A stretch of 22,239 bases of DNA from a virus. Location of the stretch: the IMG/VR virus record IMGVR_UViG_3300022752_000431, positions 1 to 22,239 of that record. The stretch is one strand, 5' to 3'. Shown here piece after piece: positions 610 through 20,512 of this stretch (the stretch's first letter is position 1; each line of letters begins with the position of its first letter). The notes beneath the pieces were generated by a model. It did no database searches, had not been told where the DNA came from, and saw only the letters and a program-made list of their open reading frames with translations. A program made the translations under genes and the position numbers.

Positions 610-618
610 ATTTATCTC

Positions 619-1842
619 CTATCCTACATATATTTTTAACGGAACTTTTGCTAATATCTCATTCATTTGTGTTGCTTCGGCATTTTGACGGGTTAACATT
701 TGTTCTTTAGTTAATTTATCTAAGAACTCTCGCAACTGCGTAATCAATGCTTCTTTTTCAGATTGACCTTGTGAAACTAAATCTGAACCATTGAGTGTTA
801 CTTCGCCATTTGGAATAGGAACGGAACTATACTTATTACGTACATACCCTAACATTTCTTTTACTAGAGCCGATCCGTATCTATATATCCACGCACGCCC
901 CATATCATTAATACTGCCGTATTTTTGATAAGTATATGGTATATTTGATGCGTCTGTTACAACATTGTTTAAAAGTGCTGTATTACCGAATAAAAGTGCA
1001 TCGTTTGCTTTGTCTTGTTCAAAAATGAATTCAAACCATACTTTATCAAAATACGGAGATGCTAATGTACCTTTTGTAGTTGGCACTGGATAAAATTTAA
1101 TATCGTCTCCATGTATTTCAAAAGAAAAATGTGATTTTCTAATTTGATCATTAAATTCTATTTGTTGTATACGAAACAAATCTGCATGTATAGGCATCAT
1201 CATAAAATTCACCGATGGTGAAAATCCTCCGAAATCAAATGCATCTAACAATTGTTGCGAACCTAATCCTGTTCCAACAAATGGGTCAAAATATCTAACA
1301 ATTGCTGGTGGTGTATTATGCATTACTCGTTTTATTTCAATAGAACTAGAATTACTTAATACTATGCCTAATGATGCTGAGATAGCATCTCGTATGCTAT
1401 ACGTTTGCTGTCCGGGGATGACATCTACCGATGCAGTATACCAACGTACGTTACCTCCGGAATCTGCTTCAGTGCCATATGCTTTTGAAAGTTTAGTTAT
1501 GTAATTAAATGAATTTCCTACTAAAGCTCCGGTAAATCCTTGTGATGTTAAAAAATTAGATGCAGTATTAATTCCTAATGTATTCATCAAATTGTTAACA
1601 ATGTTAACTTGATTGATTTGATTTGAATATTCTATTACTGATGCTTCAAATGCCGTATAAAAGTTTATATCAATTAATTCTACATCCATTATTGGATATC
1701 CTACCGAATTTGCAGCAAATTTAGCAAAACTATCTGCTTCGGATTGAAACATGGGATCAGTATCAAAAAATCCAAATGGTGTAGAACCTGTAGTAAATGA
1801 AGAACTACCTGGCCATATGGGCTTATTTTCGCTATAATCCAT
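619..1842 (-). CDS. Probable neck protein, gp13-like
   Basis: A 407-residue soluble protein with no signal peptide or membrane segment. The N-terminus (WPGSSSFTTGSTPFGFFDTD, residues 9-28) and the following helical stretch (GYPIMDVELIDINFYTAFEA, about residues 48-67) match a type of structural protein I recall from T4-like marine phages, usually annotated as neck or virion protein. The DINFYTAFE..VIEY helices also resemble head-tail adaptor proteins. It is longer than T4 gp13 (309 residues). It lies directly upstream of the gp14-like gene and opens a unit preceded by an ATATTTATAT motif 16 bases from the ATG. AAAAGGA provides a moderate ribosome binding site. Virion-structural is fairly safe; the exact T4 counterpart is not. 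Confidence 0.55.
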   Translation of the reverse strand: MDYSENKPIWPGSSSFTTGSTPFGFFDTDPMFQSEADSFAKFAANSVGYPIMDVELIDINFYTAFEASVIEYSNQINQVNIVNNLMNTLGINTASNFLTSQGFTGALVGNSFNYITKLSKAYGTEADSGGNVRWYTASVDVIPGQQTYSIRDAISASLGIVLSNSSSIEIKRVMHNTPPAIVRYFDPFVGTGLGSQQLLDAFDFGGFSPSVNFMMMPIHADLFRIQQIEFNDQIRKSHFSFEIHGDDIKFYPVPTTKGTLASPYFDKVWFEFIFEQDKANDALLFGNTALLNNVVTDASNIPYTYQKYGSINDMGRAWIYRYGSALVKEMLGYVRNKYSSVPIPNGEVTLNGSDLVSQGQSEKEALITQLREFLDKLTKEQMLTRQNAEATQMNEILAKVPLKIYVG

Positions 1843-1858
1843 GATAATGTCCTTTTAA

Positions 1859-1868
1859 ATATAAATAT
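1859..1868 (-). promoter_or_regulatory. ATATTTATAT motif upstream of the gp13-like gene
   Basis: On the coding strand this reads ATATTTATAT followed by TTAAAAGG, 16 bases before the ATG at 1842. It touches the TGA stop of PhoH (1870-1868). It is one of seven identical 10-mers in the window, all just upstream of genes, and is a candidate late promoter. Confidence 0.55.
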
Positions 1869-2830: not shown

Positions 2831-2839
2831 ATCATTTTA

Positions 2840-2849
2840 ATATAAATAT
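2840..2849 (-). promoter_or_regulatory. ATATTTATAT motif upstream of the 92-aa gene
   Basis: The coding strand reads GATATTTATATTAAAATG and lies about ten bases before the ATG at 2830. It comes immediately after the terminator of the capsid gene, the place where a new promoter would be needed. It is one of seven copies. Confidence 0.6.
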
Positions 2850-2913: not shown

Positions 2914-4590
2914 TTAAAGAACATTTAATCCATGTACATATACTTTACCGTAGAACTCTGGACGAACCACTTTCTTCGCGTAACGTGTCATGACACCTTT
3001 ACGTGGAGTGAAGTTAACTGGATCATATACTAATGGAGTCATGATAAGTGGAACGTATGGGCTAAATACTGCACCTGTTTCAAGGAATTGACTTCCTCTG
3101 AATCCCATAAGGATTACGTTTTCTTTCATGTATGGGTTTTTGTATACTGTGTATCTGTTATTGATTGCACCAATTTTTTGTACACCGGCAGCAAATTCCA
3201 TTTTGTTACCATCTGTATCAGCTGCAAATCCTGGGATTGACTCAAGGACAGTTGCAACTGCAGGAGAAGTTACAAGGAAGTTAGCACCACCACGTAATGT
3301 TTTTTGGTGAATTTTATTTGATACTTTTTGAAGTTTAGTACCTAAAGTTTGGAACCATCCACCTTGAGTGTTGTAGAATCCATCACCAGCAGATGTTGCT
3401 GCGCCGGCTGCAGATTGTGTAAATCCTGTGCCATTCCAAAAATTATTATTTAATGCTGACCAATACTCAGTTGTTGGAGCTGATGCAATCAACATATCTA
3501 AGATCTCTAAATCAATTTCCATTGATACATACTCAGACAACATTGAAGTCAATTCAGCTTCAGCATCAATTGAATGGTAAGCGTTAAGGTCTTGAGCAAA
3601 TTCAGGTGTCCAAACTGCTTTCAACTTACGTGTTTTAGCAACGATTGGCTCTGATTGAAGCTCTAAGTTAACTTCCGGGATATCAATATCAGTACCTTGA
3701 TTGATTCCTGATGTTCCTGATCCTTTGAATGGATTAGTATCTTCAAAATCACCTCTGGTAATATCTGTTGGTTGTTTGCTATAATTTACATACAATGCAG
3801 ATGCCGCTTTTGCAGCTTGAATTTTAGTAGCGTCAGCTGTTGATACAATAAATGATCCTGTTAAATTAGCATCAACTTTAGTAAATGCTTGTACTGGAAC
3901 AATTTCAGTAGATCCTGATAAGAATGTAAACGATCTAACTGCTAATTTATCTGCATCTGTTGGTAATGCAATTGTTACTTTTTTATAGCTTGATAAAGAT
4001 GCTGAATAATCAGAATCAAAATTTACATCTGATGCATCAGTTATCGTACCTGCACCTGAACCTGTAGATGCTACTGCAGATAAATTTGCTGATGTTATAT
4101 TATTAATTGAATATCCAAATCGACCTGCTCCATAAAGACCACCTGTTGGATCACTTGATGTAGTAGTAACACCAAATAATGAATCGTCAGCATTTGGAGA
4201 ACTAAATGGATCACCTGTTCTGTTCAAGTTATCAGAATCAAATCCTGGTTGAGCTGTACCGTATTTGAAATCTAAATAAAATATAAGTCCTGATGGCAAG
4301 TTCATTGGTTGAACTGAAACGAATTCTTTAGCTGCAAATTCAGCAAAGATTCTTCTTACCAATGGAAGTGCTACACCTGCCCATTCTTCAGATCCTGCTG
4401 CCGTACCTGTAGCTGATGATTCTTTTACCAATTGACGTGCTTGGTTTTCAAGCAATTGAGCCATTCCGGCTTTTTCTGTCTCATTTCTAAGACCTTCTAA
4501 TAGTCCCGTTCTTTCCCATTTATTAACCAAACCTTTAGCGGCTGATCTTTGAGATGCATCTGGACTTTGTAATAATGAATTTAAACTCAT
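2914..4590 (-). CDS. 23: Major capsid protein, gp23-like
   Basis: This 558-residue protein forms the hexamers of the head shell (HK97 fold, T4 gp23 family; T4 protein 521 residues). The family core is clear: VQPMNLPSG at residues 93-101, and a conserved block at 319-362 containing KTRKLKAVWTPEFAQDLNAY and IDAEAELTSML. Between them, residues about 115-300 are rich in Ser, Thr, Gly and Asp and probably include a variable surface insertion. The first 57 or so residues look like the segment removed by the prohead protease; LVKE|SSATG (E57) lies where T4 gp23 is cut, and LLE|G (E32) is an alternative. The ribosome binding site is very strong (AAAGGAGAT), preceded by a run of 11 A. The gene follows the scaffold gene and ends at a terminator. 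Confidence 0.96.
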   Translation of the reverse strand: MSLNSLLQSPDASQRSAAKGLVNKWERTGLLEGLRNETEKAGMAQLLENQARQLVKESSATGTAAGSEEWAGVALPLVRRIFAEFAAKEFVSVQPMNLPSGLIFYLDFKYGTAQPGFDSDNLNRTGDPFSSPNADDSLFGVTTTSSDPTGGLYGAGRFGYSINNITSANLSAVASTGSGAGTITDASDVNFDSDYSASLSSYKKVTIALPTDADKLAVRSFTFLSGSTEIVPVQAFTKVDANLTGSFIVSTADATKIQAAKAASALYVNYSKQPTDITRGDFEDTNPFKGSGTSGINQGTDIDIPEVNLELQSEPIVAKTRKLKAVWTPEFAQDLNAYHSIDAEAELTSMLSEYVSMEIDLEILDMLIASAPTTEYWSALNNNFWNGTGFTQSAAGAATSAGDGFYNTQGGWFQTLGTKLQKVSNKIHQKTLRGGANFLVTSPAVATVLESIPGFAADTDGNKMEFAAGVQKIGAINNRYTVYKNPYMKENVILMGFRGSQFLETGAVFSPYVPLIMTPLVYDPVNFTPRKGVMTRYAKKVVRPEFYGKVYVHGLNVL

Positions 4591-4626
4591 CGTTTTATCT
4601 CCTTTGTTTTTTTTTTTGTTTTAAAA

Positions 4627-5613
4627 TTAAATTAATCCTGCCAATTTTTTCCAACGGTTTGCATATTCAAAACCTTCGTTAAGAATTTGCGTTTTTGGCG
4701 CCGTTGATGCAACTGGTCTTGAAGCATAAGATTTAGATTCTTTAACTACTTTTCTAGTTTTTGTTGGCTTATTAAAGCTTTCTGCTAAAGTAGTAAATAC
4801 TAATTTTGCTTCTCGAGTTGTTGCTGCTCTATCAAAGTTTTCAATAACTTTCATTTTTTGTGCTTCGTTAAGCTCAAAGTTACGGAACAATTTGTTAGTG
4901 TATAACAATTTAGCGTTAAGTAGATTAACTTCGTTGATCACTGATTGAAGTTGTTTTACGGTGCGATATGCTTCTTGAAGATCTTTTTCCATTTTTTTGT
5001 ATTTACCTTCTTCAACTGACGTTTCATCTTCTTCTTCTGGCATTTCTTCTTCTTCTGCAAGAATAGCTTCAATTAATGCATCGATTGATTCATTTGCCAT
5101 TTTATCTTCTTCTTCGTAAGAATCTTCTTCGTACATTCCTTCTTCTACTGCATCGACAGGTGGCACTTCAGTTAATGGCTCATCCATCCCTGCTTCTAAT
5201 TCAGCAATAATTGATTCTAAATTTAAATCTTCTTCTTCAGCTGCATACTCATCTTCTGCTGGCATTTCTTCTTCTGGCATTTCTTCTTCTTCAGCACCAC
5301 CTAAATTCAAATCACCTTCGTAATCATATGAACCATCATTGTCATAATCAACTCCGATTCCTAATGAATCAGGCATATCCATTCCCATTTCGTCAGCGCC
5401 AGCTTCCATTTCGTCAGCACCCATTGCTACATCTTCAGCACCTGCTTCTAATTCTTCTTCGCCTTCTAATTCGCTCATCAATTGAGTTTCTAGCATGCTT
5501 TTCATTTGAGGCATAAATGCTTCTTGTAACGCTAATTTTGCATTTGCTAGTGCAGTTTCTTTAACAGCTTTAGCATCTGCGATTGCTTGTTTTAGCAAAT
5601 CTGATTTTGCCAT
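4627..5613 (-). CDS. 22: Prohead scaffold (core) protein, gp22-like
   Basis: A 328-residue protein that probably forms the internal core around which capsid subunits assemble, before being degraded by the prohead protease. Evidence is position directly upstream of gp23 and composition: a helical Ala/Lys-rich N-terminus (1-45), a long Glu/Met/Asp-rich acidic middle (about 50-205), and a helical C-terminal third with a coiled-coil-like stretch (about 205-285). T4 gp22 is 269 residues, so the acidic region is extended. A predicted protease site, ILNE|G, lies 15 residues from the C-terminus. A strong SD (AAGGAG) lies six bases before the ATG. The gene opens the scaffold-capsid unit and has the longest leader in the window. 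Sequence identity to T4 gp22 is not visible by eye. Confidence 0.82.
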   Translation of the reverse strand: MAKSDLLKQAIADAKAVKETALANAKLALQEAFMPQMKSMLETQLMSELEGEEELEAGAEDVAMGADEMEAGADEMGMDMPDSLGIGVDYDNDGSYDYEGDLNLGGAEEEEMPEEEMPAEDEYAAEEEDLNLESIIAELEAGMDEPLTEVPPVDAVEEGMYEEDSYEEEDKMANESIDALIEAILAEEEEMPEEEDETSVEEGKYKKMEKDLQEAYRTVKQLQSVINEVNLLNAKLLYTNKLFRNFELNEAQKMKVIENFDRAATTREAKLVFTTLAESFNKPTKTRKVVKESKSYASRPVASTAPKTQILNEGFEYANRWKKLAGLI

Positions 5614-5741
5614 TGTTTTCTCCTTAAATTTGTTTTTGGAAATAAGATTATTCTAAATCTTAATAGAAATTATTTATTTGTCGACACTATATAGAAAATA
5701 GCGTATTCTTTAATATATATGAACATGTTTGAAAAAACAGT
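5614..5741 (-). promoter_or_regulatory. Leader and probable promoter region of gp22-gp23
   Basis: This non-coding stretch lies between the terminator after bS21 and the scaffold gene. Near its upstream end the coding strand carries CATATATATTAAAG (about 5710-5721), a variant of the ATATTTATAT-AAA motif lacking the central TT. Closer to the gene a 7-bp hairpin (TAAGATT, loop TAGAAT, AATCTTA; 5643-5662) lies about 20 bases before the SD. A start near the variant motif would give a leader of roughly 90 bases, far longer than for other units here. The promoter is inferred. Confidence 0.4.
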
Positions 5742-5773
5742 AAAAAAGTCCTAACTTTTTTGTTAGGACCTTT
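5742..5773 (-). terminator. Rho-independent terminator after bS21
   Basis: The coding strand has a perfect 8-bp stem, GTCCTAAC and GTTAGGAC, around an AAAAAA loop, flanked by AAA and a six-T run. It lies 14 bases after the bS21 stop. The 14 bases TTTTTTACTGTTTT after the stem are identical to those at the terminator after gp23. Confidence 0.88.
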
Positions 5774-5787
5774 AAAATAATTTAATC

Positions 5788-6039
5788 TTAGCTATTTTTT
5801 TGATGAAAATCTTTAATTTGTTGCAAATACTTAGCTGAATTAAGTTGTTCTCTACGTTTAACACTAGGTTTTGTAAATGTTTTATTGTCTTTAAGTTTTT
5901 CTAATGCACCTGATGATTTAACTTTTCTTTTAAATGTTTTTAATGCATACGCTAAATCTTCTCTGTTAGTTCCTAAAACATTAACGCCTGTTGCGTGTCC
6001 TGGAATAATCGTTTTGTGATGTTTTTGTTTTTTATTCAT
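5788..6039 (-). CDS. rpsU: Ribosomal protein bS21, phage-encoded
   Basis: This 83-residue basic protein matches small-subunit protein bS21. Residues 26-73 follow the family pattern: NREDLAYALKTFKRKVKSSG, then FTKPSVKRREQ and SAKYLQQ. A 24-residue N-terminal extension makes it longer than bacterial bS21 (about 65-71). The KPSV...A-Y-Q end resembles Bacteroidetes bS21 more than E. coli bS21 (KPT...). Y71 aligns without gaps with the tyrosine (Y54, from memory) of the Flavobacterium protein reported to help hide the anti-SD of 16S rRNA. Phage-encoded bS21 is known from other marine phages, where it is thought to replace or supplement the host protein on the 30S subunit. The gene lies last in the protease unit, just before a terminator. 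Its 10-base leader has no SD. Identification is strong; the effect on translation is inferred. Confidence 0.9.
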   Translation of the reverse strand: MNKKQKHHKTIIPGHATGVNVLGTNREDLAYALKTFKRKVKSSGALEKLKDNKTFTKPSVKRREQLNSAKYLQQIKDFHQKNS

Positions 6040-6049
6040 ATATATTAAA

Positions 6050-6526
6050 TTAAATTTTTCCTTGTGGTCTTCTTGTAGGTTGTGGCGGTTGTTGATTAAC
6101 TACATTAAATCTAAAATGTTTAAGTTCTGGTAATTGTGAAAAATATCCTTGAATCTTTTGAGCTTCAGTTCCTGGATCTTGTCCTAAACGAAAATAAAAA
6201 TATCCTAATTTACCTGTTTTTGATTTTGAATGTTTAACTATAGTAAAACCTTTTTTAGTAGTCCATTGCTTGATAGTCTCTGCTACTTGCTCAGCTTGTG
6301 CCGGATCGCGAAGAATATACTGTACGCCTCCTTGATAGTCAGTAATATTATTTACAAGTTGAGCTTCTTGTAATTCTTCTTCCATTGTTAATGCAGATTT
6401 TAAACGTTCGGCTTGATCTGCCATTTGACTCATACGATCAACATCGTCATCTGACAGCTTCGGAATTGAAGCTTGTTCCTTTAGACCGAACCACTCTTTA
6501 TACATTTTTTTAAACTTGCTCATCAT
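6050..6526 (-). CDS. Hypothetical protein in the head module, 158 aa
   Basis: I do not recognise this protein. The N-terminal 60 residues are helical and charged; residues about 65-150 look like a compact alpha/beta domain (GGVQYILRDP, then GFTIVKHSKS and LGYFYFRLGQ) followed by a Pro/Gln/Arg-rich tail. A sequence LKE at residues 15-17 could be a protease site, but the next residue is Gln. Two ATG codons are adjacent (6526 and 6523). AAAGG lies three bases before the first and six before the second, so the second may be the real start, giving 157 residues. It sits between the 137-residue gene and bS21, within the head-core and protease unit, so a virion-internal or assembly role is plausible. 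Confidence 0.72.
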   Translation of the reverse strand: MMSKFKKMYKEWFGLKEQASIPKLSDDDVDRMSQMADQAERLKSALTMEEELQEAQLVNNITDYQGGVQYILRDPAQAEQVAETIKQWTTKKGFTIVKHSKSKTGKLGYFYFRLGQDPGTEAQKIQGYFSQLPELKHFRFNVVNQQPPQPTRRPQGKI

Positions 6527-6557
6527 TGACCTTTATATTATAAGAAAAATATTACAA

Positions 6558-6971
6558 TTATCCAATATCATAATATTTTTTTAAACCTTCTGCAATGTCT
6601 TCATATGCTTGTGCACATTTTCTTTCGTTGATAATAACTTCAGTTGCAGCTTTTTTAAATTCTTTCAAAGCTTCGGACATATATTTAAAATGACGTCCTG
6701 CTGCAGTTGTTTCAACTACGTCATCTGATGATTCATTAACATGGCGTTGAGCTGTTTCAACCATTTGTTCTATTTTACTTACCGTTTCTTCTAATTGACG
6801 CTTACTGTATACCGATTCTCCTAGTTGAGAAAATGTACGCAGTGATTCTACAAATGCACGTTTTTCTTCTAACGTTAATGGCGCTGGGCCTTCTCGAAAT
6901 ACATTAGCTTTTTCTTGTGATTCATTTAATATCGACATGATTCGATTTAAATTGTCTTGCTTAAATATCAT
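6558..6971 (-). CDS. Hypothetical helical protein after gp21
   Basis: A 137-residue, almost wholly helical, soluble protein of unknown function. I place the start at the ATG at 6971, not the upstream one at 6992, because AGGA lies six bases before it (6978-6981) and because this start falls just after the gp21 stop, whereas the longer form (144 residues) would overlap gp21 by 20 bases. Near its N-terminus is ILNE|S (E17), the same LNE sequence seen near the ends of gp21, gp22 and the 263-residue protein, which suggests processing by the prohead protease and a place inside the head. That is inference. Head-core or internal protein is the best guess. Confidence 0.72.
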   Translation of the reverse strand: MIFKQDNLNRIMSILNESQEKANVFREGPAPLTLEEKRAFVESLRTFSQLGESVYSKRQLEETVSKIEQMVETAQRHVNESSDDVVETTAAGRHFKYMSEALKEFKKAATEVIINERKCAQAYEDIAEGLKKYYDIG

Positions 6972-6972
6972 A

Positions 6973-7602
6973 TTATATCCTACATTTACCATCTTCGCAT
7001 AAAATCGAAGTAATGATTTCGTTTACTTTTCCGTATTTATTTATTTGTTTATTTTTATTTACTGATTCATTCATTTGCGTAGGACGCATAAAAGCCCCAT
7101 GTGTTGAAGGATTTGATACAAAGTCCCAACAAATTAATTCAAAATCTTCTTGAACTTCAACTACACCTTCATTACGTAATTCTTTAACTGAGCCTAATCC
7201 TCGGCTAGAAATTCCTAATGTTATGCCAGCTTTGAAAAGTGACTTTAAAATATTGCCTGAGGGTGTATCTAATATTTGTACTGCTCCGCATAAATCATCA
7301 CCTTTCCACCATATTTTTAAAACATTGTGTGATACGTTGTTTAAATTTACTACCGATGACTCTGGATGATCCAATTCTCCTAATGCTCGATGTTGATCAA
7401 TATATTCTTGTTGGTATCGGCGACATTCTCTTTCTAAGATTTGTTTTGGATACACGCGACCGTTTTGATTTTTTGCGCCTGCTCTTTGTAAAACTCCTTG
7501 TACAACAAAACCACCAGGTATTCCATATGCAGCACCATTAGATTCATTTAACGAACCTACGGGGTTAAATGGCATATATTCTACTATTAGTTGTTTTGAC
7601 AT
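6973..7602 (-). CDS. 21: Prohead core protease, gp21-like
   Basis: A 209-residue serine protease, nearly the length of T4 gp21 (212). In T4 this enzyme sits in the prohead core, degrades scaffold and trims the capsid protein before packaging. Visible catalytic candidates are H79 (GELDHPES), S132/S133 (GISSRG) and D160 (CWDFVSNPS), in the His-Ser-Asp order of herpesvirus/T4-type proteases. Its own N-terminus has SLNE|S (E20) and its C-terminus QMNE|S, plausible self-processing sites. The ribosome binding site is strong (AGGAGA, five or six bases before ATG). It is placed after two putative core proteins, as in the T4 order 20-67-68-21. Confidence 0.95.
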   Translation of the reverse strand: MSKQLIVEYMPFNPVGSLNESNGAAYGIPGGFVVQGVLQRAGAKNQNGRVYPKQILERECRRYQQEYIDQHRALGELDHPESSVVNLNNVSHNVLKIWWKGDDLCGAVQILDTPSGNILKSLFKAGITLGISSRGLGSVKELRNEGVVEVQEDFELICWDFVSNPSTHGAFMRPTQMNESVNKNKQINKYGKVNEIITSILCEDGKCRI

Positions 7603-7603
7603 A

Positions 7604-8395
7604 TTATTCTCCTAATGATCTAATTCGTTCTGATATTTTTATTAATCGTTCTGATATTTTATTCAATGCTTTTTTAGATGATTCTTTTAATCCTCCATGA
7701 GCAATACCGGATTCCGTTTTTAATCTGCTTGTATATCTAATTGTTTCTTCAATTTCTTTTAGTTTTTGTGCAACTTGTTTTATTGAATCATTTACACGTT
7801 GCTCCGGAGTTTGTTTTGCATTGCCAAATGCAAATGAACGATAACCTTCAATAAGTTGTTCATATCTTCGATCCATTGCTTCTGTTAGTTTTGGCGTTTG
7901 GCTAGGTGTATCTGTTAATGGTATAGAAGGATATTTTGTTACTTTTTTACCTTGCCAATCTACTTCATTTTCAGCAAATGCAAATTTATCCATCCATTCT
8001 TCTTCCTGTGATTCCGGTCTTTGGTATTCTCCGGGCTTATATGTTGGAGGAGTATTAATACCTTCTTTAACTCGTTTATATCCTAACGTTTCTACGGTAT
8101 CGTCATCAGCATTACCAAATGCTTTTGGCGTCATGTATGATCCAGCTCCTGCAGATGTAGATATTTCCTCTAAATCTTCATGATAGCCTTTATAATCACA
8201 ATGCAAACATCCTTCGCCTTCACACTTTACACATTGTTCTTTATTTTGATGGTGTGATCTAGTTGCCTGTTTAATAGCTTTATCTTTAACTCCTAAATAT
8301 TCTTGGCTCGGCGTTTCTTGTTTACCGTCGCCGTCCCAATCTTTTTCATTTAGAGTTTCAAAGCTTTCTTCTATTTGTCGAAGGAATGATTTCAT
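7604..8395 (-). CDS. Putative prohead core protein with Cys cluster and DxDxDG loop
   Basis: A 263-residue protein in the place occupied by T4 core genes 67/68, between portal and protease. I do not recognise a named family. Two features stand out: D19-W-D-G-D-G24 (KDWDGDGKQE), like the first half of a calcium-binding EF-hand or dockerin loop, and a zinc-ribbon-like C55-x2-C58-x4-C63-x2-C66 (CVKCEGEGCLHC) similar to one DnaJ-type CxxCxGxG repeat. The C-terminal 90 residues are helical and charged. TLNE (E17) may be a prohead protease site. Its ATG overlaps the stop of the 283-residue gene (ATGA), so translation is coupled; GAGG lies seven bases upstream. The core role is inferred from position. 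Confidence 0.72.
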   Translation of the reverse strand: MKSFLRQIEESFETLNEKDWDGDGKQETPSQEYLGVKDKAIKQATRSHHQNKEQCVKCEGEGCLHCDYKGYHEDLEEISTSAGAGSYMTPKAFGNADDDTVETLGYKRVKEGINTPPTYKPGEYQRPESQEEEWMDKFAFAENEVDWQGKKVTKYPSIPLTDTPSQTPKLTEAMDRRYEQLIEGYRSFAFGNAKQTPEQRVNDSIKQVAQKLKEIEETIRYTSRLKTESGIAHGGLKESSKKALNKISERLIKISERIRSLGE

Positions 8396-9243
8396 GCATG
8401 TACCTCATTTAACTCATCAACTAAATCCATGTAACGCATCAAGTTTAAAACATGCGACTCTTTAATCTTTTTAATATTTTCTACATTGCAAAGCATTTCA
8501 GATAATTTTTGTACTTTAATTTGTGTAACTTTATCTGTAATTTTTTTTGAATGCTCCGACAACGTTGTTTTTAATTTTGGAATAACATGTTGAACATATT
8601 GTCGTAATGCTTCGGTATCGTTAACGTTTGTAATGTATTTATTCAATAAATGTTTTTGTGACTCAGATAATGTAGAATATTTTTCATTGAATTTATCAAT
8701 CATTATTTTATAAGCTAACAATCTAGTATCTTTTTCTTGTTTAGAAAGAGTTTCAGTAATGATATCTTTTTCTACTACACGTCGCTCTGTAAGTAAACAA
8801 TGATCTAATACTACGTTTTTACATTCTGCTAATTGTTTGATGTTTGCATTATCTTCATATTCAAACAACATATAAATTGAAGCTAAAACTTTGTAATTAT
8901 TGATATGAGCTTTCGAAAGCGAATCAAAAGAAAACTTTTCAGAAATTTCTTTTACTAAATTATATTTTTGGCGATTCAATAAACTTTTGTTTAGTTTATC
9001 ATATGATTGTCTAACCGATCGAATATATTCTAATGCACGTGCTTCAGATTTATGTTGCTCTTTTATCAATGCATTATATAAATGTAATTCTTTTGCTAAT
9101 TCAGTATTTTTACCAAAATACTTTTTAATTATATCTATAGTATTTGATTTATCTGAAGTTAATGTTTCCGAAGTTAGTTTTCTAACTAACATTTCGAATA
9201 GCAATCCGGTATTTTTATACTTTGAATGTTTTAATTTTTTCAT
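8392..9243 (-). CDS. Putative head-core protein, 283 aa, all-helical
   Basis: A 283-residue, Lys/Glu/Leu-rich protein predicted by eye to be almost entirely helical, without membrane segments or catalytic motifs. The start, HSKYKNTGLLFEMLVRKLTS (residues 6-25), resembles a conserved hypothetical protein I have seen next to the portal in T4-like marine phages, with no assigned function. It opens the unit that runs through gp21 to bS21 and overlaps the next gene by four bases. An ATATTTATAT motif lies 23 bases before its ATG; there is no SD sequence. By position it could correspond to T4 gp67/gp68, but no sequence similarity supports that directly. Confidence 0.72.
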   Translation of the reverse strand: MKKLKHSKYKNTGLLFEMLVRKLTSETLTSDKSNTIDIIKKYFGKNTELAKELHLYNALIKEQHKSEARALEYIRSVRQSYDKLNKSLLNRQKYNLVKEISEKFSFDSLSKAHINNYKVLASIYMLFEYEDNANIKQLAECKNVVLDHCLLTERRVVEKDIITETLSKQEKDTRLLAYKIMIDKFNEKYSTLSESQKHLLNKYITNVNDTEALRQYVQHVIPKLKTTLSEHSKKITDKVTQIKVQKLSEMLCNVENIKKIKESHVLNLMRYMDLVDELNEVHA

Positions 9244-9266
9244 ACTGTTGTCAGTAATTTAATTTT

Positions 9267-9276
9267 ATATAAATAT
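9267..9276 (-). promoter_or_regulatory. ATATTTATAT motif upstream of the core-protein unit
   Basis: The coding strand reads ATATTTATATAAAATT, 23 bases before the ATG at 9243 and between portal and the 283-residue gene. It is one of seven copies and a candidate late promoter. Confidence 0.55.
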
Positions 9277-11114: not shown

Positions 11115-11126
11115 ATATTTCTTTTA

Positions 11127-11136
11127 ATATAAATAT
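11127..11136 (-). promoter_or_regulatory. ATATTTATAT motif upstream of the portal gene
   Basis: The coding strand reads ATATTTATATTAAAAG, 12 bases before the portal ATG and in the 46-base gap after terminase. It is one of seven copies. Confidence 0.55.
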
Positions 11137-12739: not shown

Positions 12740-13120
12740 TCAATTTACTAGTTGTGATATAGAAAATGCTGTTAGTATTGCCGTAACGAGTCCGCTTCCG
12801 AACCAAATTCCTTTTGCATCCCACCATTTAGGTTGAAGTTGACGCTGACGTTTAATATATAGATCTATGTTATCATTTAACAATTCTATTTGCTGTTTTT
12901 GATAATCAATTTGCATTGAATCTAATGCTAATAATTTTCTACATGTTTTAATTGCATCTTCTTGTTGTGTTATGATTACATTATTTATACTGTCTGCTTC
13001 CCAAAGTGAATCTAAGGTTTTAGATATTTGTATAATTTCTTGTTCTGTAAAACATGTATCGGGAATATTTTGTGCAAAACTAAATACCGGAAATGATAAT
13101 ATGATTAATAACTTTTTCAT
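12740..13120 (-). CDS. Small secreted, membrane-anchored protein (lysis candidate)
   Basis: A 126-residue protein with an N-terminal signal peptide (MKKLLIILSFPVFSFA|Q, predicted cut after A16), a helical coiled-coil-like middle (about 25-95) with C23 and C60, and a C-terminal membrane segment (about 105-123). The FSFAQ cleavage region is typical of Flavobacteriia and is a main host clue. It would therefore be exported and held in the inner membrane by its C-terminus. The ATG overlaps the stop of the 114-residue gene (ATGA). Two overlapping small membrane proteins with coiled coils just before terminase suggest a spanin- or holin-like pair, but there is no lipobox and no homology I can name, so function is open. 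Confidence 0.75.
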   Translation of the reverse strand: MKKLLIILSFPVFSFAQNIPDTCFTEQEIIQISKTLDSLWEADSINNVIITQQEDAIKTCRKLLALDSMQIDYQKQQIELLNDNIDLYIKRQRQLQPKWWDAKGIWFGSGLVTAILTAFSISQLVN

Positions 13121-13461
13121 GCTTTCTTTTTTCTTCCGCGCTTTTTAGTTTTATTTAAAATATTTTCTTTAGCATCTGCTACAGTTTTAGGTGTTTCGGG
13201 TTGAATTGTTTCTTTTACTTCTTTTGTTTGTTCTATTTGATCAACTAAATCGTCAAGCTCTTGTTTTACTTGAGAACGTTGATCTTCAATAACATCCGTT
13301 TTACCTTGTAATTGATTAATGTTTGAATTGTTCATATCAATCTTTTGATCAATTTTAGATACTTGCTTTTTTTCATGTTTTTTAAAAAATGCAACGAATA
13401 TTGCAAAAAGTGCTAATAGTCCTCCAACTATTAATGCCCAATATTTTTTAATTGTTTTCAT
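13117..13461 (-). CDS. Small membrane protein with coiled coil (lysis candidate)
   Basis: A 114-residue protein with one N-terminal membrane helix (about residues 7-26), a coiled-coil region with regularly spaced hydrophobic residues (about 35-85), and a very basic end (KKRGRKKKA). I choose the ATG at 13461 because GGAG sits six bases upstream (13468-13471); the ATG at 13473 would add four residues and has no such site. The start overlaps the end of the 214-residue gene, and its stop overlaps the next start. The architecture (membrane anchor then coiled coil) is like an inner-membrane spanin, and the neighbour is secreted, but the Lys-rich tail could equally bind nucleic acid on the cytoplasmic side. 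Role uncertain. Confidence 0.75.
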   Translation of the reverse strand: MKTIKKYWALIVGGLLALFAIFVAFFKKHEKKQVSKIDQKIDMNNSNINQLQGKTDVIEDQRSQVKQELDDLVDQIEQTKEVKETIQPETPKTVADAKENILNKTKKRGRKKKA

Positions 13462-14092
13462 CTGTTTCTCCATTAAGTTTATTTAATAATTGTTTTTTAA
13501 ATTTTTCAAATTCTTTTTCTACTTTTTCTTCAAATTCTACTGGAGTCATTTTAGCTGACCAAGTTTCTATTTCTCCTTCAGAATTTGTAACAAATTTAGA
13601 TACATTTGTATATGCATCTTTTAAAAGTTTAATGTCTTGTTCTGCACTACGTAACCATGCTTCGGCATTCTGACGTATACGATTTTTTTCATATTCATCA
13701 TATTTGCCTTGCTTTCTTAAATCATGCTCCATATCAATTGTACATTCATAACACATACCGTTATATTTACGCATTTTTTCATCTAGATGATTTGGCGTTA
13801 AACATGTACATACATCTTTTCTACATTGCGGAAAAGATCGTAATGCATCTCGTATTTCTTGAAATGTTTCTGCATTTTTTGTTTTACGTATACGGAAGCC
13901 ATCTCGTTGTTCAATAACCCAGATATTACCTGCAGCATCCGTTTCTTCCCAGGTATCACCAACTTCATGTCGTTCAGCTAATTTGCCTTTTTGTTTAGCA
14001 TCAGAGAACCCAACAGTTTTTTTGGTTTGAAATTTGTGTTCGCCTTCCAACATTTGTTGGATAGCTTTAATGTTTTGTAACTTTTTACTCAT
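13448..14092 (-). CDS. Hypothetical Cys-rich protein, probable zinc binder, 214 aa
   Basis: A 214-residue soluble protein. Residues 40-70 form a small beta-rich block (RHEVGDTWEE, AAGNIWVIEQRDGF). Five cysteines follow, C90-x4-C95-x-C97 and C114-x2-C117, likely a zinc site, and the C-terminal 90 residues are helical and charged. I recall similar proteins of unknown function from marine T4-like phages, but no named family. It lies between the repeat-containing 325-residue gene (18-base gap) and the membrane pair, in the transcript that leads to terminase. A small-terminase role (gp16) was considered because of the location, but neither the size pattern nor the cysteines favour it. No SD is visible. 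Confidence 0.72.
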   Translation of the reverse strand: MSKKLQNIKAIQQMLEGEHKFQTKKTVGFSDAKQKGKLAERHEVGDTWEETDAAGNIWVIEQRDGFRIRKTKNAETFQEIRDALRSFPQCRKDVCTCLTPNHLDEKMRKYNGMCYECTIDMEHDLRKQGKYDEYEKNRIRQNAEAWLRSAEQDIKLLKDAYTNVSKFVTNSEGEIETWSAKMTPVEFEEKVEKEFEKFKKQLLNKLNGETDENN

Positions 14093-15088: not shown

Positions 15089-15106
15089 TACTTTATTCCA
15101 ATTTTA

Positions 15107-15116
15107 ATATAAATAT
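15107..15116 (-). promoter_or_regulatory. ATATTTATAT motif upstream of the 325-aa gene
   Basis: The coding strand reads ATATTTATATTAAAAT, 18 bases before the ATG at 15088 and one base after the TGA of the fusion gene. It is one of seven copies and would drive the unit leading to terminase. Confidence 0.55.
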
Positions 15117-15117
15117 A

Positions 15118-17184
15118 TCATCGAGCGTATTTCAATACTCCTAGTATCTGATTAACTGGTGCAAAGGCTCCAGTTAATTTATACGTATTACCTTTATAAA
15201 CAAATACTACGCCTTCAGATGGAACTATAGCATCAAAGCCTCCTAAACGTTCTATGCGTCGTAATTCGTGTTCTAATTTTTTAATAGAGTCTATATTATT
15301 TGATGTTTGTAATTCTTTGATCAATTGAGCAATTTCTTGTTTTATTTCTTGAACTGCTTTGCTAGGATTTGCTGCTAGAAAATTTTCTGCATTACGTAAT
15401 ACTACTGCACCTAACCGTAGAAATATGCTTTCAAATGGCTCCATGTTTTGTTTGTAGTATTGTTTGAATTCTTTTTTATCAAATTCAGTCATCCATGCTA
15501 CGAATTCTGGATTTGTAATTTGTTTTTTAAGATTGGAGATATTTGCAGATTTATCAAAAAAGCCCCAACGATAAATAAGTGCAGATAAAATATCATCTGG
15601 AATATCATATCCTAACTGTTGAGCTTTACTTCTAATTACATCTGCCCACCATGCTCTATGATATTCAGTTACTTGATCCGTGTCTTTTAAGTTGTAACGT
15701 GTTCGTAATTGATCTATTTCATTGAAGAATGCAGCTTGTTGATCTTCAAAATCAGCTACTCTACCAATGCGTACTTGTTGTGGAGGAATAAATGAGAATG
15801 TTTTTTGCATATCTGCATTAGCATCTCGAATTACTCCTTGTAACATTTTACCTCCGGTAAAATCTGTTTGAATCACATTGCCGGCTTCATCATATTCAAC
15901 GAGATTATGAAATTGAAGATGTGCTTTATCATATGATATTACATTTTTAGTTGCAGGAAATATTATTTCCATGTTTGCAAACACTCGACCATTTTTAAAT
16001 ATTTGTTGAAGTTGTTGTGGGTTTAATTTATTAAGTGCACTAGTTAAATCTTCTGCACATGCTCTATATGCTTCTACTACTCGTTTATAACCTTCTGCCG
16101 CTTCAGCTCCATTTTTTTGTATGCTTTCTTGATATTTTCTTTCAAAGTCTGCAACAATTTGTTCTGGCGTCATTGGATTGATAACTGTACCTTTATTACG
16201 AGCAAATCCAGGTTGTCCATTTTTCCATGTAACTTGAATATTTTGACCATCAGTTTTTTCAGTAACAGCTTCTTCAATATCTAAACGGCCTTCTAATGCT
16301 CGAGCAACAATTTCTTTCATATCGCCAAATGTTAATCCATGATCATCATATGGATGTGCCATATGCCCTGCTGCGCCGCCTTCTGTTAATATTCGTTCAT
16401 GTAATGGAACGCCAAATGTTGTTTTTTCGAATCGATCAAAATCATATACAAATTCTTTTCCAGGATTTTTATGTAAGAATTTTTTAAGTTTTGATATTTT
16501 TGCATCATGGCGTTTTTGTTGAGCTACAGTCGGATATCCTTCAATTACTGCATTTACGTCTTCTTGCAGTTGTGAAATCCACCATGCTTTTGAAAATAAT
16601 GCTTCTTGTAGACCGGTTAATATTTGCCATGCATTTTTAACTAATGCTTCTTTATATTGCGGATATGATGCTGCAAATGTTGCATAATCATTGTTTTGTA
16701 ATGCTGTTCTAACTGTAGTTGCAGAAACTGGCGTACCATCTGCATACGTTATAGGATCAACATCAACATTTAATTCCGTTGCATCAATACCACTAGGCAT
16801 CGTACGACCTTTTTTATCTCCAATTGTAATATATTTGTCTACATTTGGAACAAATTCTTTAGCACGAACATAATCATCTCCTTTTGTTGATGCTGCCATG
16901 GCATAATTACCTGTAGCATCTTGCGGTAATGCAAATAGATATTCATATGCTGCTACAATCGGAGAATTATGTTCAGTCGGTTGCATTTCAATTTTAGGAG
17001 AAGTATTTAGTAATTCAAATATTTCCATGGTTTTTTCGCGTGTTATACCATCTCGTTCTTTTGGCCCGATAAGCATAATTACGCGTTCTACATTTGGAGA
17101 TTTTACATAACGTTGAGCTAATGCTAAATGAGCTCCCGTTAATGGTTTAAATCCTCCTGGAAAAAGTACTGTTATTTTATTCAT
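15118..17184 (-). CDS. Nucleotidyltransferase fused to a KxDG ligase-like domain
   Basis: This 688-residue protein carries two enzyme domains. Residues 1-180 are a cytidylyltransferase/NMN-adenylyltransferase-type domain: FPGGFKPLTGAH (8-19) stands for the GxFxPxTxGH nucleotide loop and VSATTVR (153-159) for the ISxTxxR motif. From about 300 it has covalent nucleotidyltransferase (RNA/DNA ligase-type) motifs: K310-T-D-G313 (motif I, the lysine that would take AMP), RNKG (329-332, like Ia), E406 (III), EGVV (657-660, IV) and K669 (V). About 250 residues separate motifs III and IV, much more than in T4 RNA ligases, so an inserted domain is likely. The two halves could link NAD-type metabolism to nucleic-acid repair; substrates are unknown. 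A possible protease site, LTE|G, lies at E268 in the linker. It has its own upstream motif. Confidence 0.82.
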   Translation of the reverse strand: MNKITVLFPGGFKPLTGAHLALAQRYVKSPNVERVIMLIGPKERDGITREKTMEIFELLNTSPKIEMQPTEHNSPIVAAYEYLFALPQDATGNYAMAASTKGDDYVRAKEFVPNVDKYITIGDKKGRTMPSGIDATELNVDVDPITYADGTPVSATTVRTALQNNDYATFAASYPQYKEALVKNAWQILTGLQEALFSKAWWISQLQEDVNAVIEGYPTVAQQKRHDAKISKLKKFLHKNPGKEFVYDFDRFEKTTFGVPLHERILTEGGAAGHMAHPYDDHGLTFGDMKEIVARALEGRLDIEEAVTEKTDGQNIQVTWKNGQPGFARNKGTVINPMTPEQIVADFERKYQESIQKNGAEAAEGYKRVVEAYRACAEDLTSALNKLNPQQLQQIFKNGRVFANMEIIFPATKNVISYDKAHLQFHNLVEYDEAGNVIQTDFTGGKMLQGVIRDANADMQKTFSFIPPQQVRIGRVADFEDQQAAFFNEIDQLRTRYNLKDTDQVTEYHRAWWADVIRSKAQQLGYDIPDDILSALIYRWGFFDKSANISNLKKQITNPEFVAWMTEFDKKEFKQYYKQNMEPFESIFLRLGAVVLRNAENFLAANPSKAVQEIKQEIAQLIKELQTSNNIDSIKKLEHELRRIERLGGFDAIVPSEGVVFVYKGNTYKLTGAFAPVNQILGVLKYAR

Positions 17185-17198
17185 GCAATATCCGTTTT

Positions 17199-17208
17199 AT
17201 ATAAATAT
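17199..17208 (-). promoter_or_regulatory. ATATTTATAT motif upstream of the fusion gene
   Basis: The coding strand reads ATATTTATATAAAACGG, 14 bases before the ATG at 17184, in the 46-base gap after the fibre gene. It is one of seven copies. Confidence 0.55.
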
Positions 17209-20485: not shown

Positions 20486-20502
20486 TACATGAAATTTCTT
20501 TC

Positions 20503-20512
20503 ATATAAATAT
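20503..20512 (-). promoter_or_regulatory. ATATTTATAT motif upstream of the fibre gene
   Basis: The coding strand reads ATATTTATATGAAAG, 17 bases before the ATG at 20485. Its first base overlaps the TGA stop of gp46. It is one of seven copies, and the only one with a G after the 10-mer. Confidence 0.55.

Follow-up and report, generated by a model that had tools for sequence, protein, structure and literature searches.

The window analysed here is the 22,239-base stretch formed by positions 1 to 22,239 of the viral record IMGVR_UViG_3300022752_000431, a late region of a T4-like phage whose called genes all lie on the minus strand. It carries a phage gene for the ribosomal protein bS21 among structural genes, some preceded by a Shine-Dalgarno (SD) sequence and some not. 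Pfam and PHROGs searches gave matches to gp23, the gp21 protease, PhoH, a head-tail adaptor and bS21. Homologues of gp23 (PF07068) and gp21 (PF03420) place the window among T4-like phages, as does a late gene order which, apart from bS21, is like that of Flavobacterium phage immuto (NC_055915), the nearest cultured match of the capsid protein (55% identity over 99%). No bS21 match is present in the whole immuto record. Across related phages, SD use accompanies an extended form of phage bS21; close relatives lacking bS21 show none, and almost all phages whose bS21 is host-like show none either. SD strength was computed as the free energy (dG) of leader pairing with the 16S tail, using gene starts from longest-ATG calls. 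The features on which the argument rests are as follows.

5788..6039, minus strand: phage bS21 gene, 83 residues (PF01165, 40.1 bits against a cut-off of 27; leader dG +2.0)
5965..6039, minus strand: bS21 residues 1-25, which contain the phage-specific N-terminal extension (7jil alignment)
5827..5829, minus strand: Tyr71 codon, aligned with Tyr54 of Flavobacterium johnsoniae bS21, the anti-SD masking residue (alignment offset 17)
5744..5773, minus strand: intrinsic-terminator-like hairpin directly 3' of bS21, a 12-pair stem followed by a T-run (-15 kcal/mol, z -4.4)
4627..5613, minus strand: gp22-like prohead scaffold gene, 328 aa, acidic, adjoining gp23 (by position and homologues)
5620-5625, minus strand: gp22 SD, AAGGAG, 6 nt from the ATG, dG -8.2
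2914..4590, minus strand: gp23 major capsid protein (PF07068, E-value 5.5e-76)
4599-4605, minus strand: gp23 SD, AAAGGAG, 8 nt from the ATG, dG -8.9
6973..7602, minus strand: gp21 prohead protease (PF03420, E-value 1.2e-33)
7609-7613, minus strand: gp21 SD, AGGAG, 6 nt from the ATG, dG -7.3
616-620, minus strand: SD of a 172-aa gene, AGGAG, 6 nt from the ATG, dG -7.3
8402..8406, minus strand: SD of a 263-aa gene, GAGGT, dG -7.0 (SD-like in 54% of 28 leaders)
1850..1855, minus strand: SD of a 407-aa head-completion gene, AAAGGA, dG -5.5 (SD-like in 83% of 52 leaders)

A sequence-only reading of this DNA had reported good SD sites on gp22, gp23, gp21 and the 172-residue gene and none on the bS21, 92-residue, terminase and 283-residue genes. 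Both halves of that pattern were confirmed, with spacings of 6-8 nt and dG values of -7.3 to -8.9 for the former and dG values of +0.6 to +2.0 for the latter, and the sites of the 263-aa and 407-aa genes are additional to it. Window leaders without an SD comprise those of bS21 (+2.0), the 92-aa gene (+0.6), TerL (+0.6), the 283-aa gene (+0.7) and portal (-1.1). Five of the 20 window genes have leaders at dG <= -7, a level that 4.6% of leaders reach after shuffling (binomial p 0.0017), and six reach dG <= -5, compared with 12.3% (p 0.03). From the window alone the excess of SDs is modest but significant, and conservation in relatives is the stronger test. Within the close clade, distinct leaders at dG <= -5 make up 52/52 for gp22, 98% of 51 for gp21 and 93% of 71 for gp23, against 2% of 64 for bS21, 0/33 for portal and 14% of 36 for TerL. 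Mock windows and shuffles ruled out a chance origin of the sites. The gp21 site overlaps the final codons (L-G-E-stop) of the 263-aa gene, and its Gly codon is GGA or GGG in 50/50 readable cases (of 51) and never GGT or GGC, the codons used for 220/408 glycines in the window overall; this codon choice rules out the site as a by-product of coding, so that it seems selected beyond the protein. Many bS21-minus relatives (L182-L209) retain a weakened gp22 site (TTTAGGAAAA) though they have lost the one on capsid; this could be a remnant or else a leader element in its own right.

An SD strength unrelated to gene class, which the sequence-only reading had named as a refuting outcome, was not what whole genomes showed, SD use depending on gene class over 69 ortholog groups in six bS21 genomes. 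Most constant were the SDs of capsid (6/6), tube (6/6), gp22 (5/6), sheath (5/6) and gp21 (4/5), while TerL, DnaB and DnaG (each 0/5) and portal (1/5) were SD-poor; the bS21 gene itself scored in 2/6 genomes by the looser ortholog-group criterion. In T4, the sheath, tube, capsid and scaffold proteins are made in many copies, portal and TerL in few. Genes at dG <= -5 amount to 25% and 21% in two bS21-bearing contigs of ~160 kb each (G006 and G002, respectively), with internal ATGs at 11%, and to 3.7% in immuto, with internal ATGs at 18%. The SD genes common to G006 and G002 include gp22, capsid, protease, head completion, sheath and tube, and further single-strand binding protein, RecA and GroEL. 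Their immuto counterparts have dG values between -2.4 and +2.3; the capsid, scaffold, protease, sheath and tube genes of immuto are all without SD.

For a comparison of phages that do and do not carry bS21, relatives were collected using four capsid and three bS21 queries. Many records are fragments, and bS21 is called absent where it is absent from the record examined. For the capsid comparison, L001 and loci L109-L128 were left out beforehand; the set then went from 336 to 249 after dropping 87 whose capsid start could not be read or in which protease and bS21 were both missing, and to 217 after removal of identical capsids. A missing gp22 or gp21 start was scored as no SD in this table, hence only its capsid column was used as a test. 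A capsid SD was present in 147/156 lineages with bS21 versus 4/61 without (217 distinct related capsid lineages); set beside this contrast, SDs over shared ortholog groups numbered 111/364 versus 9/232.

Whole sequences were then divided by bS21 type, with the SD core counted at -14..-8 and a mock window at -30..-24 as the control. Six sequences with an extended bS21, including the window, had the core in 138/865 genes (mock 12), each being individually significant (p 1e-2 to 5e-9), and phage Mel-JY01, whose bS21 has a shorter and different N-terminus, was likewise significant (22/223 genes, mock 1). The 11 phages with host-like bS21, 7 of them examined from <=60 kb, had it in 35/824 genes (mock 21), 10/11 individually not significant. 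Six phages without bS21 gave 32/1,054 genes (mock 25), with 5/6 individually not significant: immuto (3/209), G015 (1/205), G016 (2/107), G017 (2/203) and G033 (6/200 versus mock 1, p 0.06). Two Bacteroidia genomes avoided the SD core (5/360 genes, mock 13). At canonical spacing the core was found in 14.8% of genes in the extended class (n = 1,068, Mel-JY01 counted here), against 1.7% in the host-like class (n = 287) and 1.5% where bS21 is lacking (n = 925), and its position histogram peaks at -12 to -9 before the start in the extended set only.

The same division was visible in single loci. Because some contigs are represented by several overlapping loci, locus counts are not independent, and the extended class was therefore counted by distinct bS21 proteins: 701/2,242 genes had an SD in 143 such loci (lowest locus 10%), compared with 1/424 genes across the 18 host-like loci whose residue 54 is aromatic. 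L304, L357 and L359, with truncated or uncertain bS21 starts, were left out of the host-like class. Loci lacking bS21 and spanning protease to capsid had SDs in 54/994 genes (65 loci), above the host-like class, so the bS21-minus class is not uniform. Since host-like bS21 phages are mostly without SD use, bS21 presence was replaced by bS21 type, which is the better predictor. Extended and host-like phages both have Bacteroidota-like bS21 cores, yet they differ in SD use.

The type difference lies at the N-terminus. The best PDB chain matches of the window bS21 are 9i5v and 7jil, the latter from the F. johnsoniae ribosome (bS21 chain of 64 residues), and residue 26 of the window protein aligns with residue 9 of the 7jil chain, which gives an extension of ~17 residues beyond F. 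johnsoniae bS21. In the structure model, helices span residues 26-43 and 58-82 and the extension directly precedes the first helix. Its consensus in the alignment of window-type bS21 is M-x-K-K-x-K...S-I-x-P-G...A-V-x-V, and it was absent from 30 cellular bS21 sequences of the bacterial class searched, with starts picked within 55-72 residues, a range that agrees with the length of the 7jil chain (30 of 32; L362 and L365, from bins where bS21 may be phage-borne, were left out). McNutt et al. (2023, PMC9976891) report that in F. johnsoniae bS21 masks the 16S tail together with bS18 and bS6, and that bS21 loss, a C-terminal deletion or Y54A leads to more SD-dependent translation; Chen et al. (2022, PMC9723584) place the bS21 N-terminal helix over the anti-SD. 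The window protein shares the aromatic residue of the masking Bacteroidia bS21 (Tyr71) and departs from their short N-terminus. Loss of Tyr54 alone is ruled out as the cause of SD use in the window clade, where the Tyr is kept. In other clades the equivalent residue is replaced, mostly by Arg, and there its loss may serve: three loci with host-like N-termini and a non-aromatic residue 54 (L357, L359, L360) have SDs in 9/21, 4/17 and 5/14 genes, respectively. LR756508, with Met at 54, shows little SD use (4/120, mock 2).

The phage bS21 gene had been described as the opposite of host rpsU, and it is: only 6/143 distinct bS21 leaders reach dG <= -5 and 0/143 reach <= -7, so the exceptionally strong SD of rpsU-type autoregulation is lacking. 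The hairpin and T-run that follow bS21, and separate it from gp22-gp23, are kept in 71/73 relatives. Together, the SD-less leader and this hairpin suggest that bS21 may come from unaltered ribosomes and from a transcript separate from gp22-gp23.

A Bacteroidetes-type setting, as the sequence-only reading had supposed, is likely: the capsid is nearest to that of a Flavobacterium phage and the window bS21 is closest to 9i5v and 7jil. No spacer or host link was found in the 395 genomes searched, and a 31-base match in G270, considered as CRISPR-like host evidence, was rejected as it lies in a host coding gene. A link through a Flavobacteriales metagenome-assembled genome (L357 and L359) was set aside as weak because both bS21 matches in that bin seem to be on phage contigs. 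Mel-JY01 (L129, PP395634.1) is recorded as a Microcystis phage, has a capsid 54% identical to that of the window and groups with these phages; its host may be a companion bacterium.

The window phage uses two kinds of start signal, and its hosts' ribosomes are probably SD-ignoring. It is mainly the relatives with a lengthened bS21 that have SDs on their most-needed genes, a pattern suggesting that host ribosomes are re-tuned by the phage toward its own messages. The best explanation, though still a tentative one, is that the extended bS21 takes the place of the host protein and leaves the anti-SD open to phage messages. Under this explanation, bS21 mRNA, having no SD, would be read by ordinary host ribosomes, and its product would then displace host bS21 in ribosomes. 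The extension would prevent masking of the 16S tail despite the kept Tyr54, a role that loss of the Tyr54 equivalent might play instead in some clades, and ribosomes with an unmasked anti-SD would prefer phage messages with SDs. Such a takeover would be feed-forward, opposite in sign to host rpsU autoregulation. We propose with greater reserve the fuller account in which the extended bS21 is a phage-made specificity factor that unmasks the anti-SD in an SD-blind host and opens a private channel for SD-marked capsid, scaffold, tail and DNA-binding genes, SD-less host messages losing out and relatives that lost bS21 having erased their SDs.

Several results weigh against bS21 replacement as the explanation. 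The Tyr54 equivalent, aromatic in 119/143 distinct extended bS21 proteins, is kept in the window protein and predicts masking, and the bS21 model is of modest confidence (predicted local distance difference test score of 65 for the first ten residues, predicted template modelling score 0.47). Nine of the 156 bS21-positive lineages lack a capsid SD, a clade of four loci (L331/L342/L350/L354) has a moderate capsid SD with bS21 not detected, and RM378 uses SDs significantly without bS21 (18/130 genes, mock 2). LR756501.1, a 735-kb phage (L527, L529, L530) with host-like bS21 and Tyr at 54, has SDs in 17/167 genes (mock 1) and is the main exception to the bS21-type rule. On capsid trees of 213 rows (capsids <=350 residues left out) and of 60 representatives (L103, capsids <=480 residues and near-copies left out), bS21 changes only 3-4 times, so the correlation rests on few events and on the separate host-like bS21 phages; a single bS21 origin was not rejected (approximately unbiased (AU) test p 0.171; 58 rows, L130 and L131 left out), and an independent-pairs test had no power. 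The window clade is sister to the immuto clade, which lacks bS21 (Shimodaira-Hasegawa-like approximate likelihood ratio test support 99), and other bS21/SD clades fall outside the pair, a placement that suits joint loss in the immuto line.

The few changes on the trees and the AU result also fit shared ancestry alone, in which bS21 and SD leaders stood together in one ancestor and were lost together by chance in the immuto clade, bS21 serving otherwise, for example by replacing a destroyed host bS21 (a phage attack on host bS21 is a speculation of McNutt et al. 2023, PMC9976891). This is unlikely: SD leaders are short and fast-changing, yet all 143 extended-bS21 loci have SDs in >=10% of genes, and in the bS21-minus clade they are missing at many separate genes. 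The host itself might instead drive the pattern, extended-bS21 phages infecting SD-capable hosts in which SDs mark high-output genes and the immuto clade having lost its sites in SD-blind Flavobacteriia, with bS21 not causal. The SD genes do look like high-output genes, some ribosomal genes in other Bacteroidia orders have SDs (McNutt et al. 2023, PMC9976891), and phages with proteobacterial-looking bS21 (L514-L521, L523) use SDs as their presumed hosts would, in 8/9 loci and in 19-37% of genes in those 8. We nevertheless regard this account as doubtful, given that the nearest cultured phage infects Flavobacterium and the window bS21 is closest to 9i5v and 7jil, that the two Bacteroidia genomes sampled avoid SDs, and that similar bS21 cores accompany different SD use.

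The sequence-only reading had held that the SD sites would favour ribosomes lacking bS21, which would make SD genes the messages of bS21-short ribosomes during infection and phage bS21 a later brake or timer. Retention of the Tyr54 equivalent is compatible with that account, as is the report that bS21-free F. johnsoniae ribosomes favour strong SDs (< -13; McNutt et al. 2023, PMC9976891). It is nonetheless very unlikely, because relatives without bS21 (immuto, G015, G016 and G017) could use SDs if shortage sufficed and do not, and because the phage SDs, at ~-6 to -9 kcal/mol, are weaker than that strength. The broader suggestion of a switch acting through bS21 level or type stood in part: type correlates with SD use, absence does not, and the Tyr54 equivalent, the anti-SD masking residue, is kept in the window protein.

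Turning to other features of the window, the gp22-like scaffold gene had no match in the Pfam and PHROG searches; the immuto gene L002:15627-16868 (NC_055915.1), annotated as 'DNA polymerase phi-like', is a gp22-like scaffold gene by position and homology. The element TATTTATAT occurs 7 times, each in the sense orientation and <=45 nt upstream of a start codon, at the positions below.

1855-1867, minus strand: TATTTATAT copy
2836-2848, minus strand: TATTTATAT copy
9263-9275, minus strand: TATTTATAT copy
11123-11135, minus strand: TATTTATAT copy
15103-15115, minus strand: TATTTATAT copy
17195-17207, minus strand: TATTTATAT copy
20499-20511, minus strand: TATTTATAT copy

The orientation bias of this candidate late promoter or leader element recurs in relatives with and without bS21 (G006, 16 sense and 1 antisense; immuto, 9 and 2). 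By inspection of the sequence, two small genes at 12740-13473 (minus strand) resemble a spanin/lysis pair, encoding a 126 aa protein with a signal-like N-terminus and a 118 aa protein with a single hydrophobic segment. Judged in the same way, a 688-aa protein at 15118-17184 (minus strand) has a nucleotidyltransferase-like N-terminus and a later part like an RNA/DNA ligase; in immuto, a gene annotated NadR lies upstream of TerL.

If the specificity-factor account is true, these phages hold a natural heritable switch of mRNA choice through the swap of one ribosomal protein. Why phages carry bS21 has been an open question, and its tie to SD use emerges once bS21 type is separated; the matter is directly testable, since F. 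johnsoniae reporter and purified-ribosome assays have been published. Earlier papers already describe phage bS21, including that it is expressed late and can be extended, as well as anti-SD masking (PMC9723584, PMC7162821, PMC6375957, PMC9976891). Among ribosomal proteins, bS21 is reported to be the one that phages carry most frequently (McNutt et al. 2023, PMC9976891; Mizuno et al. 2019, PMC6375957), and a pelagiphage bS21 was incorporated into E. coli ribosomes (Mizuno et al. 2019, PMC6375957). In mainly open-access literature, preprints aside, we found no work that connects the type of a phage's bS21 with the use of SDs on phage genes.

Among known systems, the bS21-bearing Bacteroidetes phages of Chen et al. 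(2022, PMC9723584) resemble the window in having a T4-like late region with TerL, portal, protease, capsid and bS21, predicted Bacteroidetes hosts, an aromatic position 54 and late expression; they differ in that their bS21 lies on the strand opposite the structural genes, whereas in the window it shares their strand, and no SD analysis of phage genes was found in the accessible text of that paper. The huge phages of Al-Shayeb et al. (2020, PMC7162821) have an N-terminally extended rpS21; in the portions available, rpS1, not rpS21, is linked to the lack of SDs, and a link of rpS21 to SD use was not found there. For huge-phage S21, Watson et al. (2020, PMC7550191) describe no clear relation with ribosome-binding sites. 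Closest in logic is rpsU autoregulation in F. johnsoniae as described by McNutt et al. (2023, PMC9976891), where the bS21 state of the ribosome likewise decides whether SD messages are favoured; host rpsU, however, is preceded by a very strong SD and is subject to negative feedback, whereas the phage bS21 gene has no SD and the SDs stand on other genes.

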